The notes under the pieces were generated by a model that worked only from the letters and a program-made list of their open reading frames with translations, ran no database searches and was not told the origin of the DNA. Positions 3,322 to 12,707 of a stretch of DNA of 64,000 nucleotides are shown piece by piece. This stretch comes from an uncultured Flavobacteriales bacterium (GTDB taxonomy: Bacteria; Bacteroidota; Bacteroidia; Flavobacteriales_D; Parvicellaceae), in assembly GCA_943788115.1 (NCBI GenBank), contig CALSPA010000006.1:62001-126000 (forward strand), read 5' to 3'. Position numbers and translations under genes: made by a program. Position 1 is the first letter of the stretch, and every line of letters starts with the position of its first letter.

Positions 3322-5080
3322 ATGTATAGAACACAGACAAATGGTGATTTAAGGCTTAAGCATGTAGACAAACATGTTACGCTTTGTGGTTGGGTTCAAA
3401 AATCAAGAGACCTAGGCGGAATGACATTTATTGACCTAAGAGATCGATACGGTATTACACAGCTTACATTTAATGAATCAATAGATAAATTACTTTGTTC
3501 TAAAGCAAGAGAATTAAGTAGAGAATGGGGTAATTCAAATTTCAGGATTAGTAAGAGAACGAAGTAGCAAGAACCCAAATATAAAAACAGGTGAAATTGA
3601 AATTGAAGTTCAATCCTTAACCGTTTTAAATCAATCTAAAACACCACCTTTTACTATAGAAGATCAAACGGATGGTGGTGAAGAGTTAAGGATGAAGTAT
3701 AGATTCTTGGATTTAAGAAGAGGTCCTCTGCAAAAAAACATGCTGCTACGAAGCAAGATGAGTCTAGAAACAAGAACTTATTTCAACGAGATTAATTTCA
3801 TTGAGATAGAAACTCCATATCTAATAAAATCAACTCCAGAGGGAGCAAGAGATTTTGTTGTGCCAAGCAGAATGAATAAACAACAATTTTATGCCCTTCC
3901 TCAATCACCTCAAACATTTAAACAGCTTTTAATGGTCAGTGGTTACGATCGCTATTTTCAAATTGTAAAATGTTTTAGAGATGAAGATTTAAGAGCTGAT
4001 CGACAGCCTGAATTCACACAAATTGATTGTGAAATGGCATTTGTTAATCAGCAAGACATTTTAGATACTTTTGAAGGGCTAATAAAACACCTTTTCCAAA
4101 AATTAATTGGGCTTTCTTTTAAAGAAAAATTTCCTGTTATTACTTATGAAAAAGCAATGTTAAATTATGGCTCTGATAAACCTGACATTAGGTTTGAAAT
4201 GAAGCTCAACTATATTGATTCATTAGCAAAAGGAAAAGGGTTTAATGTATTTGACCAAGCCGAATCAATCGTAGCAATTAGTGTTCCCAATTGTGCTGAT
4301 TACTCTAGAAAAAAACTAGACAAACTAACTGAATGGGTCAAAAGACCTCAAATTGGAGCTAAAGGTCTTATTTATGTTAAACTCAACTCTGACAACACAA
4401 TCAAATCTTCAGTTGATAAGTTTTTCAATAGTGAAGACTTAAAACAATGGGGAAATCTTTGTGGATCTAAACCTGGAGACTTGCTACTTATTCTGAGTGG
4501 GAACTCTGAAGAAGTTCAAAAACAAATGAATGAATTGAGATTAAAAATGGGTACTGATCTAAACTTAAGAGATCCTTCGGTTTTTAAACCAATTTGGGTT
4601 GTCGACTTCCCTCTTCTTGAAAAAGATAATGAAACTGGTGATTTTCATGCGATGCATCATCCATTTACCTCACCTAAATCTGAAGATTTAAAGCTCATCG
4701 ATGAAAACCCTATTCAAGTTAGGGCAAATGCTTATGATTTAGCCATTAATGGGGTTGAAGTTGGTGGTGGTTCTATTAGGATTCATAACAGAGATGTCCA
4801 AGAAAAAATGTTTGCACTGCTAGGTTTCTCTAAAGAAGAAGCCAAAGAACAGTTTGGATTTTTAATGGATGCATTTGAATATGGAGCTCCTCCTCATGGT
4901 GGAATCGCTTTTGGATTTGATAGACTTTGTACTCTTTTCGGAGGCAGAGAAAATATTAGAGAGTTCATTGCCTTCCCTAAAAATAATCAAGGCAGAGATG
5001 TAATGATTGACGCCCCATCTAAAATAGACATTCAACAAACTAAGGAGCTTGGAATAAGCTTAGAAGAAATTGAAAACTAG
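3322..5080 (+). CDS. aspS: aspartate--tRNA ligase, one frameshift
   Basis: Class II aminoacyl-tRNA synthetase charging tRNA-Asp; corrected length about 585 aa, normal for bacterial AspRS. An N-terminal OB-fold anticodon-binding domain ([21 protein letters not shown]) is followed by the catalytic core with motif 2 ([14 protein letters not shown]), the bacterial GAD insertion and motif 3 ([10 protein letters not shown]). The frame breaks in the G run at 3527-3530: removing one G turns REWGNSNF into [14 protein letters not shown] and joins the two halves. A broken essential synthetase is implausible, so an error in the sequence is likely. The stop shares the palindrome CTAG with the convergent membrane-protein gene. 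gatC and gatA are both in this window, so AspRS may also serve the tRNA-Asn amidation route; that is inference. Confidence 0.92.
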
Positions 5081-6045
5081 ATTTCTTTTTTTTGATATTG
5101 AATAGCAAAGAGAGAGATTAGGCCTAATGCAACAATGAAGATTGTTTGTGTTGACCACATTAACATACTAAAAGATTTAGCAGTTTCTCCTTCAAAACCA
5201 TATAGTCCTGTCAACACAGAGGCAACCATAATTGGGTAAAGTCCTATTCCTCCAGGTGTCACTCCAATTGCAATTGCACCAGCTACAAAACAAGCAAAAG
5301 TAGCGTTTACGCTAATGTTTTCAACACCTGGCAGTGCTAATGCTGTAAGCCAAAACATAGCTAAGTATGCCGCCCAAATAAAAACCGTATGAAATATAAA
5401 TGCAGTTTTTTGTTTTAATTTTAAAATTGTTAAACAACCCTCAAGAATACCCTTTACAAACTTAATTAGCTTATGTCTAATTTTCTTTGAAAAGCTAATT
5501 GTCAGAAATAATATTGTTATAAAAATTAGAAAAGCTGGAATGATCCAAGGTGGAAAACCTTCAGCTTGAGTAGCTTTTATTTGATTAAATTGCTCTTGAT
5601 CTGTTTGTAATAATCCTGCAATAAAAATAACTAGACCAAACATTATTAAATCAATTACACGTTCAACTACAATTGTACCAAATGTTTTATCTACAGATGC
5701 TTTATGATATTTACTAAAATAACCAGCTCTTGCTAACTCTCCAGACCTTGGAATCGTCAAATTAATTATATAACCAATCATTACACTGTGGTACATTAAG
5801 CTGAGCTTTGGTTTATAACCAAGTGGATGAAGTAAATATTTCCAGCGATACGCTCTACTTAGATGACTTAAAAATGCAACAACTAAAGCAACCATGATCC
5901 ACCAATAATTTGCCCCTTTAAAAGCAGCTAACATGTGCTGCCTTTCAGCAATAGAAGAGTTAGAAAAGAAATACCAAGTCAAGTAAACACCAATAGAAAT
6001 AGGGATTATAATTTTCAATATCTTTATTAGTCTTTCTTTAATCAT
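5077..6045 (-). CDS. UPF0104/lysylphosphatidylglycerol-synthase TM-region family protein
   Basis: A 322-aa integral membrane protein with roughly eight hydrophobic segments and conserved family motifs: RAYRWKYLL after the second helix, [16 protein letters not shown], and GGIGLYPIM near the C-terminus. It corresponds to the membrane domain of MprF-like proteins without the soluble aminoacyl-transferase domain, so lysylation activity is not expected. It lies 4 bases downstream of panC and is probably co-transcribed with it. The true substrate is unknown; a lipid-related or flippase-type role is a family-level guess. Confidence 0.85.
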
Positions 6046-6049
6046 AAAA

Positions 6050-6877
6050 TTAATTTAATTCGATGTTATCAATAAGTCTAATATCGCCCAATTTAGTAGC
6101 TACAAAAGCTCTCCATTTTGTATTCTTTCCACCAGATTTTGACAAATCATTAGCATTTCTAATTTCAAAATATTCAGGACTAGAAAATTTTGAAAGCTCT
6201 TTAAAACATGTATTCTCTAAATCATTAAAATCCATTGTTTTTGCTTTTTGCATACACATACCTAAAACCTTATAAATATTTGGAGCTAAAGATCGATGAT
6301 GTTTAGATAGTCTAGCATTTCTTGAGCTCATGGCTAAGCCATCATTTTCTCTAACAGTTTTACAAGCAATAATTTCAGTTTTAATTTCCAACTTTTTTAT
6401 TAATGTTTTTATTATCAATAATTGCTGAAAATCCTTCTCTCCAAAAAATGCATAATTAGGTTTTATAAGATCTAAAAATAATTTAACCACTCTAGCAACT
6501 CCTTCGAAATGACCAATTCTATGGAATCCTTCCATTACGTTTTCAATGGATTCAAAAGCAATAGTGTCATAATTCTCATTTTTATATAACTCTTCAGCGC
6601 TAGAAGGAATAAAAACCATGTCAACCTCTAGATTTTCTAAAGCTCTTAAATCTTGGTCTAAAGTTGACGGATAATTTACAAAATCATTTTTGTCTCCAAA
6701 TTGTGTTGGATTAACAAAAATACTTACCACAACTAAGTCTGCCTTTTTTTTCGCTTCGCTTATTAGAGAAAGATGCCCTTTGTGAAGCGCTCCCATGGTA
6801 GGAATAAACCCAATTGCTAAATCTTTGTTTTTAGAAACCCAATTAACTACTTCTAAGTTGTTGTAAATCAATTTCAT
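6050..6877 (-). CDS. panC: pantoate--beta-alanine ligase (pantothenate synthetase)
   Basis: Cytoplasmic ligase joining pantoate and beta-alanine with ATP in the last step of pantothenate synthesis. Length 275 aa is normal. Visible motifs: PTMGALHKGHLSLI (HIGH-like nucleotide site), VNPTQF, FFGEKDFQQL and SSRNARLS. It is divergent from the GT5 gene; both have a TAnnTTTG element in the 100-base spacer. The panD gene often found beside panC in flavobacteria is absent here. Confidence 0.95.
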   Translation of the reverse strand: MKLIYNNLEVVNWVSKNKDLAIGFIPTMGALHKGHLSLISEAKKKADLVVVSIFVNPTQFGDKNDFVNYPSTLDQDLRALENLEVDMVFIPSSAEELYKNENYDTIAFESIENVMEGFHRIGHFEGVARVVKLFLDLIKPNYAFFGEKDFQQLLIIKTLIKKLEIKTEIIACKTVRENDGLAMSSRNARLSKHHRSLAPNIYKVLGMCMQKAKTMDFNDLENTCFKELSKFSSPEYFEIRNANDLSKSGGKNTKWRAFVATKLGDIRLIDNIELN

Positions 6878-6936: not shown

Positions 6937-6944
6937 TAATTTTG
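6937..6944 (+). promoter_or_regulatory. -7 element (TAATTTTG) for the GT5 gene
   Basis: TAATTTTG matches TAnnTTTG and lies 33 bases before the ATG at 6978. No clear TTG was seen at the expected upstream distance. Confidence 0.5.
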
Positions 6945-6977: not shown

Positions 6978-7805
6978 ATGGAAAAAAGTAGAATTTTATT
7001 TGTTACCCAAGAAATCACCCCTTTCCTCAGCGAAACTAAATTAGCTGAAACTGTTAGAAAAATATCACAAGGTGTTCATGAAAAAGATAAAGAAATAAGA
7101 ATCTTTATGCCAAGATTTGGCGTTGTCAATGAAAGAAGACATCAGTTGCACGAAGTGATTAGACTTTCAGGAATGAATTTGATTGTTGATGATGCTGACC
7201 ATCCACTTATTATTAAAGTTGCTTCGATTCCACAAGCTAGAATACAAGTTTACTTTATCGATAATGAAGAGTTTTTTAAGCGCAAAAGAGTTTTCAATGA
7301 TGACAAAGACAAATTTGCAAAAGACAATGACGAAAGAGCTATTTTCTTTTGTCGAGGGGTAGCTGAAACTGTTAAAAAATTAGGCTGGGCTCCTGACATT
7401 GTTCATTGCCACGGTTGGATGACTGCTTTTATGCCACTTTATTTAAAAAGCATCTATAATGATGACCCTCATTTCACTAGTGCTAAAACAATGTTTTCAG
7501 TTTATGGAAGTGGTTATAAAGGATCTTTGTCTAAGAAAATTTTAACCAAATTGTCCTTTGATGGAATTGCCACAGATGATTTAGTTTTAGAAAATTCACC
7601 TAATTCTGATAATGTAAACATGCTTGGAGTTCAATTTGCAGATGTAATTGGAATTGGAGATCAAGCAATAAATACAGATTTACTTAGTTATATAGAAAAT
7701 TGTGGGAAACCGATTTTAGGTTACCAAGAAGAAGAAAGTTTAGTTGATGCACATCAGGATTTTTATGACAAAGTACTCACTGAGGATGGTGTTTTTGCAG
7801 ATTAG
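6978..7805 (+). CDS. short GT5 'glycogen/starch synthase' N-domain protein
   Basis: A 275-aa protein that matches only the N-terminal Rossmann domain of GT5 glycogen synthases (about 480 aa in full enzymes). Retained features are the opening ILFVTQEITPFL, RIFMPRFG and HCHGWMTAFMPLYL. The ADP-glucose-binding KTGGL motif is replaced by SETKL, and the C-terminal nucleotide-binding domain is missing. Short forms like this are commonly annotated as glycogen synthase in Bacteroidota next to panC and DUF4270, as here. Canonical glycogen synthesis is doubtful; a binding or regulatory role is possible. It ends cleanly at TAG, and the following DUF4270 gene starts 40 bases later. Confidence 0.8.
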   Translation: MEKSRILFVTQEITPFLSETKLAETVRKISQGVHEKDKEIRIFMPRFGVVNERRHQLHEVIRLSGMNLIVDDADHPLIIKVASIPQARIQVYFIDNEEFFKRKRVFNDDKDKFAKDNDERAIFFCRGVAETVKKLGWAPDIVHCHGWMTAFMPLYLKSIYNDDPHFTSAKTMFSVYGSGYKGSLSKKILTKLSFDGIATDDLVLENSPNSDNVNMLGVQFADVIGIGDQAINTDLLSYIENCGKPILGYQEEESLVDAHQDFYDKVLTEDGVFAD

Positions 7806-7845
7806 GCAGAAAACCAATTACAGATATTATTTTAAAACAGCAGGT

Positions 7846-9174
7846 ATGAAATTTATACCTCTTCTTCTGATAACTATTTTGTTTTCATGTAGAAAAACAA
7901 ATGACTTTGGTTTGGAAGTACAACCCAATCAAGATTTACTTTCTGTAAATCAAACAGATTCCACTTCAATCATAACATATTCGGTTTTAGAAGACAGCTT
8001 AAAAACGGATGAATTATCTGGACCAAATCTTTTAGGTTCCTATACTGACCCCTACTTTGGGTCTTTAAATTCATCTGTATACACCCAAATTAGACTTGAA
8101 AGCTCATATGACTTTAGACCTAGTGGAACGCTTACTCTAGATAGTTTAATAGTCGATTCTGTTATTTTATACCTTGCTATGGATGGGTATTATGGTAATT
8201 TAGGGAGTCAAACGTTTGAAGTTTTTCAATTAAGTGAAGACCTTCATTTAGATTCTAGCTATTATACAAACTCAACCTTGTCAGCTAACCTGATTAATCT
8301 TGTAGCATCATCTAATGGGGAAATCAACCCAAACCCCCAAGTACCTGGCTATGTAAAAGGCGAGCTAGTGAATGAGGCAATATTGAGAATTCCATTAAGT
8401 ATAACAGATTTTGCAATTCCAATCATGGAACAATCTGGAACAACATCATTAGACGGAAACGATGGAGATGATCAATTTATAGATTGGTTTAAAGGATTAC
8501 TCATCACCACCAACAATACATCTCAAAGCATAAATCAAGGAGCAATTTATTACACAGATCTCTTAAGCGAATTTTCTAAAATCACTTTATTTTATAGAGA
8601 CACTTCTGGTACCGCAGCAGATCACGACACCTTATCTTTTGACTTTAACTTAAACGCCAATTGTGCACGCTTTCACAATTCAACAATTGATTACACATCC
8701 TCGGTTGTCGAGTCTACATTAAATGACTCTACTTTAGGTCAAGATTTATTCTATGTTCAATCTCTTGGTGGGTGTAAAGGTAAAATACATTTTCCTTATT
8801 TAGACCAGCTTATTGACAGCTCTATTATAATTAATAAAGCCGAATTAGTTTTACCTTTCCAATTCTATCTTTTAGATGCTTACGACCCTGCATCATCTCT
8901 TATTTTAACAACCGAAAACAGCAATGGAGATGCATCCTTTTTGCCTGATTTTTTTGAAAGTAATCATGGAGGAAGTATCGATTTAATTAATAAAAACTAT
9001 CGTTTTAACATTACCCGATATATAAATGAAATAATTGCTGGAGAAACTTCCAATTATCCTCTTTCTTTAATTACTAGTGGCTCAGGTGTGTCTGCAAACA
9101 GAGGTGTCTTTAATGGTTTCAACTCTACTAAAAAAGACAAGCCTAAATTAATTTTAACTTATTCAAACTATTAA
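7846..9174 (+). CDS. DUF4270 domain lipoprotein
   Basis: A secreted lipoprotein of about 442 aa. The start at ATG 7846 gives MKFIPLLLITILFSCRK, a signal peptide with lipobox LFSC; the frame is open further upstream but that would overlap the GT5 gene. The body is beta-rich with repeated LDSLIVDSV and LTYS-type strands, characteristic of DUF4270, a Bacteroidota family usually placed between the short GT5 gene and glmS. Its function is unknown. It lies 3 bases upstream of glmS, so co-transcription is likely. Confidence 0.85.
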   Translation: MKFIPLLLITILFSCRKTNDFGLEVQPNQDLLSVNQTDSTSIITYSVLEDSLKTDELSGPNLLGSYTDPYFGSLNSSVYTQIRLESSYDFRPSGTLTLDSLIVDSVILYLAMDGYYGNLGSQTFEVFQLSEDLHLDSSYYTNSTLSANLINLVASSNGEINPNPQVPGYVKGELVNEAILRIPLSITDFAIPIMEQSGTTSLDGNDGDDQFIDWFKGLLITTNNTSQSINQGAIYYTDLLSEFSKITLFYRDTSGTAADHDTLSFDFNLNANCARFHNSTIDYTSSVVESTLNDSTLGQDLFYVQSLGGCKGKIHFPYLDQLIDSSIIINKAELVLPFQFYLLDAYDPASSLILTTENSNGDASFLPDFFESNHGGSIDLINKNYRFNITRYINEIIAGETSNYPLSLITSGSGVSANRGVFNGFNSTKKDKPKLILTYSNY

Positions 9175-9177
9175 TAA

Positions 9178-11025
9178 ATGTGCGGTATTGTTGCATACAT
9201 TGGTAAGCAAACGGCTTACGATATAATTATAAAGGGCCTTAAGCGTTTAGAATATAGAGGCTATGATAGTGCTGGTGTTGCTCTTCATAATTCAAAAAGC
9301 CTTAATGTTTACAAAAAGAAAGGGAAAGTTGCTGATTTAGAAACTTTTATTGATGATAAAGATATTTCTGGAAGCATAGGTATAGGACACACTAGGTGGG
9401 CTACTCACGGACCACCAAATGACATCAACTCTCATCCACATCAGTCTGGAAATAAAGATTTCGCATTAGTTCATAATGGAATTATTGAAAATTACGCTGT
9501 TCTAAAAGAAGAATTAACACAAAGAGGACATCAATTCCTAAGTGATACAGACACTGAAGTCTTAATTCATTTAATAGAAGAAATTTACACAAATAGTAAA
9601 AAAAGTTTAACCCTTTTTGAAGCAGTAAGGATTGCTCTTAATGAAGTAATTGGAGCTTATGCAATTGTAGTTATTAATAAAAACAACCCAAATGAACTAA
9701 TTGCAGCAAGAAAAAGTAGCCCCTTAGTTGTTGGCATTGGTGAAGGAGAATTCTTCTTAGCATCTGATGCTACTCCTATGGTTGAATTTACAAAAAATGT
9801 GGTTTACCTTGAAGACGGAGAGATTGCTCATCTAAGCTTAGAAACTGGATTGAAAATAAAAACTGTTGCTAATCAAGAAAAAACACCCTACATACATGAG
9901 CTTGAAATGCATTTAGAAACTCTTGAAAAAGGAGGTTTCGATCATTTCATGTTGAAAGAAATTTACGAACAACCTCAATCTATTCACGACAGTATGAGGG
10001 GGAGACTTCGATCAAGTAAAAGCATGGTTTCACTTGGAGGAATTAAAGATTATGAAGAAAAAATTGTACAAGCAAAAAGATTAATTTTTGTGGCCTGTGG
10101 GACCTCTTGGCATGCTGGTTTAGTTGGTGAATATCTTTTTGAAGACTTAGCTAGAATTCCTGTTGAGGTGGAATACGCTTCAGAGTTTAGATACAGAAAC
10201 CCCATAATCAATGAAGATGATGTTGTTATTGCAATATCTCAATCTGGAGAAACTGCAGATACATTAGCTGCTATTAAAATGGCAAAAGAAAAAGGTGCTA
10301 CAATTGTTGGAATTTGTAATGTTGTTGGAAGCTCAATCTCAAGATTGACAGACTGCGGTTCATATACGCATGCAGGACCTGAAATCGGAGTTGCATCTAC
10401 TAAAGCTTTTACCGCACAAGTGACTGTACTTACACTTATGGCTTTGATGATTGGAAAGAAAAAAGGAACTATCACCAATCAGAGGTTTAATAGATTACTA
10501 GTAGAGCTAGAATCAATTCCAGAAAAATTAGAATCAGTATTAACGCTAGATTCAGTAATTAAAAAAATAGCTTCCACTTATAAGGACTCAAGCAACGCTT
10601 TATATTTAGGAAGAGGAATTAACTTTCCGGTAGCATTAGAGGGTGCTTTAAAGCTTAAAGAAATTTCTTACATACACGCAGAAGGTTATCCCGCTGCTGA
10701 AATGAAGCATGGTCCAATAGCACTTATTGACGAAGAAATGCCTGTTTTTGTGATTGCAACACAAGACACAAGCTATGAAAAAGTTGTATCTAATATTCAG
10801 GAGGTTAAAGCTAGAAAAGGAAAGGTAATTGCAATAATCACAAAAGGAGATAAAGATGTTAAAGAAATAGCTGATCATTACATGGAAATTCCATTGACAG
10901 ATAGCTTATTAGTCCCTCTTTTAGCAACTGTCCCTTTTCAATTATTAAGCTACCATGTTGCAGTAATGAGAGAGTGTAATGTTGACCAACCTAGAAATTT
11001 AGCGAAGTCAGTTACGGTAGAATAA
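9178..11025 (+). CDS. glmS: glutamine--fructose-6-phosphate aminotransferase (isomerizing)
   Basis: Makes glucosamine-6-phosphate from fructose-6-phosphate and glutamine, the first committed step to UDP-GlcNAc for peptidoglycan and LPS. The 615-aa length is standard. The N-terminus MCGIVAYIG exposes catalytic Cys2 of the class II glutaminase domain (about residues 1-220); two SIS domains follow (about 290-420 and 460-600) with CGTSWHAG and SQSGETADT in the first. The C-terminal NLAKSVTVE is the conserved tail. No glmS-ribozyme-like leader is evident, since only 3 bases separate it from the upstream gene. Confidence 0.97.
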   Translation: MCGIVAYIGKQTAYDIIIKGLKRLEYRGYDSAGVALHNSKSLNVYKKKGKVADLETFIDDKDISGSIGIGHTRWATHGPPNDINSHPHQSGNKDFALVHNGIIENYAVLKEELTQRGHQFLSDTDTEVLIHLIEEIYTNSKKSLTLFEAVRIALNEVIGAYAIVVINKNNPNELIAARKSSPLVVGIGEGEFFLASDATPMVEFTKNVVYLEDGEIAHLSLETGLKIKTVANQEKTPYIHELEMHLETLEKGGFDHFMLKEIYEQPQSIHDSMRGRLRSSKSMVSLGGIKDYEEKIVQAKRLIFVACGTSWHAGLVGEYLFEDLARIPVEVEYASEFRYRNPIINEDDVVIAISQSGETADTLAAIKMAKEKGATIVGICNVVGSSISRLTDCGSYTHAGPEIGVASTKAFTAQVTVLTLMALMIGKKKGTITNQRFNRLLVELESIPEKLESVLTLDSVIKKIASTYKDSSNALYLGRGINFPVALEGALKLKEISYIHAEGYPAAEMKHGPIALIDEEMPVFVIATQDTSYEKVVSNIQEVKARKGKVIAIITKGDKDVKEIADHYMEIPLTDSLLVPLLATVPFQLLSYHVAVMRECNVDQPRNLAKSVTVE

Positions 11026-11162: not shown

Positions 11163-12707
11163 TTACCTTTTGATAAAAGCTGCTTGAGAAACATTATTAT
11201 CTCCAATTAATCTAATAAAGTAATTTCCAGAATCTAAATTACTCACATCAATTGGTTGTCCATTTAAGTTTCCGCCAACAACAACTTGACCATGAATGTT
11301 AGTTATGAAAAATTCTCCTTGTCCATTTTCAACATTTAAAATATTATTAGTTGGATTGGGATAAACATTAATTTCTATTAATTCTACATCTTTCAAGCCA
11401 GTGATACTTGGCAATAGTACTTTATCTAGAACATGTACAATTCCATTGTCAACAACAATATCAGCTGTTGTAACATTTGCATCATTTATCATAACTCCAG
11501 AAGTAATATCAATTGAAATATCTTGACCATTTAATGTAGTTACTGATCCATTTGAAAGTGATGTTGAAAGTACAACAACATCTAGGGTGTGATAAAGTAA
11601 AATATCAGTAAGATTTGGGTTAGCTAAAACTCCTGTAATGTCAGTTCCTAAGTCAGTAGCTAAATTATCAAAAGCAACATCCGTAGGTGCAAACACAGTA
11701 AACTGACCAAGTGGATTAGTTAAAATTGGTAGAAGACCTTCTTGTATAACTGCTGCTGTAAGTGATGTAAAATTATTATCAATTGCAACATCAATTACAG
11801 TTTCGGATGGTAATACAACAGCATCGATTACATGAACTAATCCGTTGTCTGATAAAATATCTGCCGTAACAACTTTAGCTTGATTAGCATACACACCACT
11901 AGCATTAACAGACATTTTAATTGTGTTAGTAGTGCTTATTGGTTGGGCAATTTGGCCGTTAGAAATGGAAGTTGAGATAACTTCTGCACCAATAACATGA
12001 TAGGTCAAAATATCTGTTAAATTTGGTAGTGCTAATAAATCATTAACTGTAACACTTAATGCTGTTGCTAGATTATCAAAAGCAGTATTTGAAGGGGCAA
12101 AAACAGTAAAAGTTGATAAAGGGTTAGTTAATACAGGTAATAATTCTTCTTGAATTAAAGCGGCAACAAGAGTTGTAAATCCATTATCAATAGCAATATC
12201 TGCAACAGTTTCTACTGGCAAAATAACATCACTAATTACATGAACAACACCATTGTCAGCAGTTATATCTGCAGAAATAACTTGTGAATGATTAACAAAA
12301 ACATCTCCTGAAGTTGTTTTAGTTAATTTAATTGTATTGGTTGTTGAGAGTGGAGTCACAACATCGCCATTATTAATTGCCGATGCAGAAACATTTATTC
12401 CAAGAACATGGTATGTAAGTATGTCCGTCAAATTTGGTAACGCCAGTAAATCGGGAACTGTTAAACCAAAGGAAACTGCTAGGTTAGTAAAAGCGTTGTC
12501 ATCAGGAGCAAACACTGTTAATTGTGCACTTGAATTTTGAAGAGCAACATCTAAATTTTCTTGTATTAAAGCCAATTCTAAATAAGTATGATTAGGACTT
12601 GGCACAATGATATCGTCAAATACGTTAGTTTGACTAGACATATAATTTGAGAAAGATAAAAATAAGAACGCTAATGCAATTCTGGGATAGATTGAAATTT
12701 TTTTCAT
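11163..12707 (-). CDS. triple-fasciclin (FAS1) surface protein with T9SS sorting domain
   Basis: A 514-aa secreted protein: signal peptide (IALAFLFLSFSNYMSSQ), three FAS1 domains (about residues 32-170, 171-305 and 306-435), then a type A Por-secretion C-terminal domain (about 440-514) with VYPNPTNNILNV, DLDSGNYFI-like and FIKR elements. Each FAS1 copy repeats FTVFAP...AFDNLA and LPNLTDILTYH, with a VHVI.. .VLLP-like end. FAS1 domains typically mediate adhesion, and the sorting domain predicts export through T9SS to the cell surface. It has its own promoter upstream and shares a terminator with glmS. Confidence 0.92.
   Translation of the reverse strand: MKKISIYPRIALAFLFLSFSNYMSSQTNVFDDIIVPSPNHTYLELALIQENLDVALQNSSAQLTVFAPDDNAFTNLAVSFGLTVPDLLALPNLTDILTYHVLGINVSASAINNGDVVTPLSTTNTIKLTKTTSGDVFVNHSQVISADITADNGVVHVISDVILPVETVADIAIDNGFTTLVAALIQEELLPVLTNPLSTFTVFAPSNTAFDNLATALSVTVNDLLALPNLTDILTYHVIGAEVISTSISNGQIAQPISTTNTIKMSVNASGVYANQAKVVTADILSDNGLVHVIDAVVLPSETVIDVAIDNNFTSLTAAVIQEGLLPILTNPLGQFTVFAPTDVAFDNLATDLGTDITGVLANPNLTDILLYHTLDVVVLSTSLSNGSVTTLNGQDISIDITSGVMINDANVTTADIVVDNGIVHVLDKVLLPSITGLKDVELIEINVYPNPTNNILNVENGQGEFFITNIHGQVVVGGNLNGQPIDVSNLDSGNYFIRLIGDNNVSQAAFIKR

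Follow-up and report, generated by a model that had tools for sequence, protein, structure and literature searches.

A GT5 protein that lacks its donor domain is linked to bamH across Bacteroidota

BamH belongs to the core of the machinery that assembles the outer membrane in Bacteroidota, and in two 2025 papers on BAM (PMC12611786, PMC12578637) the DUF4270 proteins Fjoh_0823, Bt4306 and PGN_1735 are given as BamH, which the main texts describe as essential in F. johnsoniae (PMC12611786) and as important, not essential, in B. thetaiotaomicron (PMC12578637). The BAM components named in those main texts are other subunits than the protein considered here, and the terms "glycogen" and "starch synthase" occur nowhere in them. 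The protein next in number to Bt4306, BT_4307, is annotated as a putative glycogen synthase. In the relevant passages of PMC10797578 glycogen storage is inferred from BT_4307, those of PMC10394638 infer storage from a P. gingivalis glycogen synthase, and the passage of PMC6706054 that mentions PGN_1734 holds nothing informative.

A further comparison is with catalytically dead pseudoenzymes, in which the fold is kept, the active site is lost and selection remains strong. The short GT5 protein described here resembles them in all of this, but differs in that it has lost a whole catalytic domain and in that its gene is tied to a BAM operon. Pseudoenzymes as such are known; a very widespread example that derives from GT5 and belongs to a BAM operon is new as far as our literature search goes, which lay outside most subscription papers and found no published account of the anatomy of the short GT5 or of its BAM linkage.

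The window analysed here is a 64,000-nucleotide stretch of DNA from an uncultured Flavobacteriales bacterium, in which the features of interest are as follows.

6050-6877, minus strand: panC (Pfam search), the divergent neighbour in Bacteroidia-type loci
6937-6944, plus strand: TAnnTTTG promoter element of the short GT5 gene (motif match)
6978-7805, plus strand: short GT5 gene, 275 aa, acceptor domain and crossover helix with the donor domain deleted (Pfam, model, structural alignment)
7029-7043, plus strand: residues S18-L22, replacing the K-x-G-G-L donor motif (residue retention in 90 short proteins)
7113-7262, plus strand: residues 46-95, loop, hairpin and strand under the strongest constraint in the short clade (site entropy)
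7404-7418, plus strand: HCHGW motif, D137 changed to G146 (G in 70/90 and D in 20/90 short proteins)
7731-7793, plus strand: C-terminal crossover helix, residues 252-272 (DSSP on the model; GlgA match running to residue 477)
7846-9174, plus strand: bamH homologue, a DUF4270 lipoprotein (PF14092 match, lipobox)
9178-11025, plus strand: glmS (named in the first-pass annotation and by sequence), a neighbour in many Bacteroidia-type loci

The order reported previously, with a DUF4270 lipoprotein gene and glmS downstream and panC divergent, is as the coordinates have it. The likeness of this locus to the described BamH systems is that of the neighbour, not that of the short GT5: the DUF4270 protein matches PF14092 at 127 bits (cut-off 27), is the sole such match in its own genome, and is a BamH homologue in a genome that also encodes BamG (290 bits), but it reaches only 74 of the 420 bits set as the NCBIfam BamH_fj cut-off. 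Its likely start is the ATG at 7846, followed by the lipobox LFSC, the mechanical ORF beginning at a TTG at 7744.

Anatomy and active site of the short GT5 protein

The frame at 6978-7805 runs for 275 aa with no interruption, and its GT5 N-terminal signature, both points of the first-pass annotation, is borne out by a PF08323 (GT5) match over residues 5-224 (E 2e-49) and by the presence of HCHGW. A Pfam search of the protein returned no match to the GT1 C-terminal domain (PF00534). The top-ranked NCBIfam family is PRK14098 starch synthase, at 178 bits below its cut-off of 754, and TIGR02095 glgA is likewise below its cut-off (122 bits vs 328).

An AlphaFold2 model, made from an alignment of 55 sequences comprising the window protein and those of 54 of 80 named loci, has a mean pLDDT of 90.6 and a pTM of 0.91; pLDDT is 79 for residues 51-60, 71 for residues 61-70 and below 50 for residues 271-275. 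The solved structures closest to it in Foldseek are starch and glycogen synthases (best 6gne_A, E 5.9e-14). Using VIA-align, residues 4-267 superpose on residues 1-477 of E. coli GlgA (Z 24.6, rmsd 2.6, 245 aligned) and residues 2-270 on residues 23-516 of starch synthase IV (Z 27.7, rmsd 2.6, 254 aligned). As the alignment reaches both ends of E. coli GlgA, the last helix is still there and what is missing is the domain before it, so that the short GT5 is a first domain plus a last helix from between which the donor Rossmann domain has gone. A plain C-terminal truncation is ruled out by this end-to-end alignment in favour of an internal domain deletion. The earlier statement that the C-terminal domain is absent therefore stands for the donor domain and fails for a simple cut, and the structural comparison with full-length GlgA that had been proposed matched the acceptor domain and skipped the donor domain. 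Judged by hydropathy only, the start of the protein is not like a signal peptide, with a peak 15-residue mean of 0.76 in the first 40 residues compared to 2.11 for BamH, and so does not indicate export to the periplasm or outer membrane.

Retention of active-site residues was scored in E. coli GlgA numbering for 90 short proteins, 18 full-length relatives outside a family designated f17 and 16 housekeeping GlgA, the donor and catalytic roles of these positions being those that we presume for the E. coli enzyme. K15-T16-G17-G18-L19 of E. coli GlgA aligns with S18-E19-T20-K21-L22 of the window protein, confirming the previously noted reading of KTGGL as SETKL. The E. coli residue is kept among the short proteins at frequencies of 0.06 (K15), 0.00 (G17), 0.00 (G18), 0.20 (D21), 0.22 (D137), 0.18 (H161) and 0.29 (N162), D137 still being present in 20/90 and H161 in 16/90; the same seven positions are kept at 0.94-1.00 in the full-length relatives and at 1.00 in the housekeeping GlgA. 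The donor and catalytic residues of the short GT5 are thus mostly lost. Compared to E. coli GlgA (2qzs) the short GT5 has in common the acceptor-domain fold, the terminal helix and the residues E12, P15, P45, Y92, R102, D116 and H143, but it is without the donor domain and has mostly lost K15, G17, G18, D21, D137 and H161. On these residues and this architecture we would anticipate a protein without transferase activity, and a non-enzymatic role is very probable.

The short GT5 might still be an enzyme of another kind, with a single-domain activity in the old acceptor cleft that is directed, for instance, at a phosphorylated sugar. This would be in keeping with the retention of D116, N117, R120, H143 and W147 in 0.96-1.00 of the 90 short proteins, and BT_4307, which may hold a ligand, figures among the 16 proteins that were enriched in each of two B12-probe screens in B. 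thetaiotaomicron (log2 2.61 and 1.05; PMC8941943, Table 1), the section on these screens giving no confirmation of B12 binding by BT_4307. However, with the donor domain absent and the residues above mostly lost, and with the truncated GlgA of E. lausannensis described as inactive in the pertinent part of PMC7935935, we regard a remaining enzymatic activity as improbable.

GT-B enzymes can in principle be split, as in the split glycosyltransferase Alg13/Alg14, and the short GT5 could be one half of such an enzyme with the donor domain on a separate protein; the genome that the window comes from does have a pair of small frames with a GT1 domain (136 and 217 aa). Both are weak matches (25.9 and 23.5 bits) however, and the short GT5 has lost the catalytic residues of the acceptor side as well, so that a split enzyme seems very improbable. 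A GT1-type glycosyltransferase frame with one in-frame TGA was also seen in this genome (G000:C2:2777-3163).

The short gene is the only GT5 gene found in its own genome, which is 89.5% complete so that absences are no proof, and in which there was no match to the Alpha-amylase_C (glycogen-branching) domain and no glgC over the cut-off, the best match scoring 53 of 425 bits. A role in glycogen synthesis in this genome was rejected on these grounds, within the same limit of completeness. It could be proposed that the short GT5 is instead a regulatory subunit of glycogen metabolism that acts on housekeeping GlgA, and in 15 of 16 hand-picked genomes that have the short gene a GlgA over the cut-off is indeed also present. 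Yet the present genome, as far as it is complete, keeps the short gene without another GT5, Alpha-amylase_C or glgC over the cut-off, and the neighbours of the gene are envelope and cofactor genes; we find this proposal quite improbable. It is very likely that "glycogen synthase" is the wrong name for proteins of the BT_4307 type.

Origin, full-length relatives and constraint

Of 198 genomes of the phylum, 197 have a GT5 match, whether short or full-length, and short frames turn up again and again among the same neighbours, which is more than chance would give. A tree of the acceptor domain was made from 78 sequences: 41 short proteins, left from the 90 after thinning by identity, 20 full-length relatives, 16 housekeeping GlgA and the E. 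coli enzyme. The short proteins form one clade (100/100), nested in a clade with the full-length relatives (100/99) and apart from housekeeping GlgA. From this topology there are therefore two GT5 paralogues in the phylum, and the short protein derives from the second, having a single origin by loss of the donor domain from the full-length paralogue. The latter is FCB-type and PRK14098-like (loci L152-L169), and in addition to its place in the same clade it shares with the short GT5 the residues R41, R53, H58, R62 and Q90 and the linkage to bamH; it differs in having its full length, and in each of the 18 proteins outside f17 the residues K15, R300, K305 and E377 are unaltered. Outside f17 the full-length paralogue looks, from its residues, to be mostly active.

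There are 20 full-length loci of this paralogue in the survey, 18 outside f17 and two inside. With the widened bamH profile described below, bamH lies within 2 kb downstream in 17 of the 20, compared to 9 of 20 before the named and full-length loci had entered the profile. The presence of bamH beside the full-length GT5 indicates that the linkage predates the domain deletion. A GmhB/HisB-like HAD phosphatase directly follows the full-length GT5 in 18 of the 20 loci by eye, L152 and L154 being without it, and was confirmed by profile in all three loci scanned (L155, L165 and L168). BamG (NF053685) is downstream in 13 full-length loci at 157-260 bits, with 6 of these 13 over the cut-off of 250; the BamG scan covered 13 loci outside f17 other than L155-L159, where other genes occupy the place of BamG in so far as they are legible. 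At L168 a lipoprotein ORF and BamG follow the full-length GT5, yet this locus falls outside the bamH count. The operons of L152-L169, in which a full-length GT5 and bamH are often accompanied by a gene for a GmhB-like phosphatase and often by bamG, belong to classes other than that of the window.

Family f17 comprises 14 loci (L170, L171 and L203-L214) and is probably Chlorobiaceae, since the BAM work reports BamG and BamH to be missing from Chlorobiota. No bamH adjoins the full-length GT5 in 14/14 of these loci. All 14 proteins have K15R, G17S, K305Q and changes at G18, R300 and D116, and all keep R41, R53, H58, R62, K80 and Q90; D21, D137, H161 and E377 are also kept. The donor site has therefore been eroded separately in f17 while the hairpin has stayed, and glycogen synthase activity of these proteins appears doubtful.

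Within the short clade the constraint has moved from the donor site to a β-hairpin face formed by residues 46-95. Mean site entropy in the 90 short proteins is 0.79 bits for residues 46-57, 0.98 for 58-84, 1.48 for 85-88 and 0.48 for 89-95, the corresponding values in the 16 housekeeping GlgA being 2.37, 2.51, 2.21 and 1.59 bits. The position of the KTGGL loop, on the other hand, has an entropy of 1.72 bits in the short proteins vs 0.56 in the full-length relatives, and the H161 region 2.35 vs 1.04 bits. All 90 short proteins and all 18 full-length relatives have R41, R53, H58, R62 and Q90, each of which is seen in no more than 1 of 16 housekeeping GlgA; G65, A82, S83 and K103 reach 0.96-1.00 within the short clade and no more than 0.12 outside it. 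Residues 51-70, which belong to the conserved face, are modelled at a lower confidence (71-79).

The short GT5 is also under very strong purifying selection, with dN/dS of 0.011-0.068 in 20 of the 25 closest pairs of short loci, individual values being rough as dS was saturated in the other 5 pairs and exceeded 1 in many more. For bamH dN/dS is 0.060-0.295, and the short GT5 was lower in all 14 pairs that could be computed for both genes. The earlier suggestion that the intact frame reflects a selected function other than glycogen synthesis is upheld by these ratios, by the lost residues and by a genome in which no other GT5, no Alpha-amylase_C match and no glgC over the cut-off were found.

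Linkage to bamH and possible functions

Linkage was surveyed in 69 short loci from the phylum sample (29, plus 40 chosen before the DUF4270 search) and in 80 named short loci. PF14092 alone matches only 66 of the 198 phylum genomes, and for this reason an iterated bamH profile was used; in the first 69 loci a one-sequence phmmer search with the window BamH found 13 ORFs and the iterated profile 65. The profile as it was before the named and full-length loci entered it and the widened profile both find bamH in 71 of the 80 named loci, so that the widening matters for the full-length count alone. A same-strand bamH is 3' of the short gene in 65/69 sampled and 71/80 named loci, 136/149 together, or by class in 111/123 Bacteroidia-type and 25/26 other-class short loci. 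The neighbourhood survey of short GT5 and DUF4270 pairs suggested at the outset thus found a conserved linkage, and in the loci surveyed the most constant neighbour of bamH is an annotated glycogen synthase that is very probably unable to be one.

The motif TAnnTTTG, which we take to be the Bacteroidota -7 type promoter element, is found within 130 bp upstream of the short GT5 start in 116 of 147 loci, 13.2 being expected from mononucleotide shuffles, and upstream of bamH in 12 of 108 loci (6.2 expected). The gap between the two genes has a median of 21 bp in 108 loci, a further 28 having no callable bamH start. The simplest reading is that the short GT5 gene leads one transcript with bamH. 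In the F. johnsoniae BAM study the 100 bp upstream of fjoh_0824, by its gene number presumably the short GT5 gene, is one of two promoters used in the depletion constructs, as these are described there.

Thirteen of the 149 short loci are without an adjacent bamH, two of them at contig ends, which leaves 11 that have downstream sequence and keep the short gene with no bamH beside it. In G007 the short gene remains by panC and a DUF4270 gene is found at another place, next to bamG, whilst in G146 and G002 a DUF4270 gene, BamH or BamH2, is located away from the short gene. By position, then, the function of the short GT5 is not specific to bamH, and it is kept when bamH is not alongside. The link to the lipoprotein that was originally suspected holds as conserved gene linkage; a physical link finds no support in the start of the protein, which is not signal-peptide-like, in the main texts of the two BAM papers, where the terms given above do not occur, or in the 13 loci without an adjacent bamH, and the linkage may be more one of shared regulation than of contact.

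The promoter ahead of the pair and the short gap would also suit a relic, or a translational leader of bamH, with no function at the protein level. It would be hard to reconcile such a gene with the dN/dS values given above, with its retention at the 11 loci lacking an adjacent bamH or with the arrangement in G007, and we consider this scarcely credible.

We think it fairly probable that the short GT5 is a non-catalytic, domain-deleted GT5 paralogue which acts as a cytosolic adaptor or sensor and is co-expressed with BamH. A full-length GT5 that was already upstream of bamH would have lost its nucleotide-sugar-binding Rossmann domain once, and the remaining acceptor domain and crossover helix would form a cytosolic protein without transferase activity. 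A protein partner or a small ligand would be bound through the 46-95 face, as expected of an adaptor or sensor, and production of the protein would be tied to BamH and so to outer-membrane assembly; adjacency to bamH would not be needed for the gene to be kept. As a tentative and rather unlikely proposal, the short GT5 could be a dedicated cytosolic factor for the control or quality of outer-membrane biogenesis, which would set BamH or BAM output and would use the hairpin face to sense a sugar or nucleotide ligand or to bind a partner from export or regulation; under it the paralogue would have lost donor-site function on two occasions, in the short clade and in f17, with binding kept. If a BAM-linked regulator proves to be true, it would be a new control point of outer-membrane assembly; otherwise a function must still be found for a protein that is very widespread and highly constrained.

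panC, glmS and other neighbours

It had been claimed that the whole arrangement recurs in Bacteroidota, which is the case for bamH; panC and glmS are neighbours in Bacteroidia-type loci only. Among the testable short loci of that type, panC stands divergent upstream in 97 of 120 and glmS downstream in 66 of 87, each with 0/26 in the other classes. A link to amino-sugar supply through glmS, as had been conjectured, is therefore rejected as a phylum-wide rule; of these same 26 loci 25 have bamH.

Behind panC in the window (5077-6045, minus strand) is a membrane protein of the LPG_synthase_TM family (PF03706), a relative of which is near the short GT5 in many Bacteroidia-type loci. Finally, the window encodes at 11163-12707 (minus strand) a 514-aa protein with repeated similar stretches, which to us read like fasciclin repeats.
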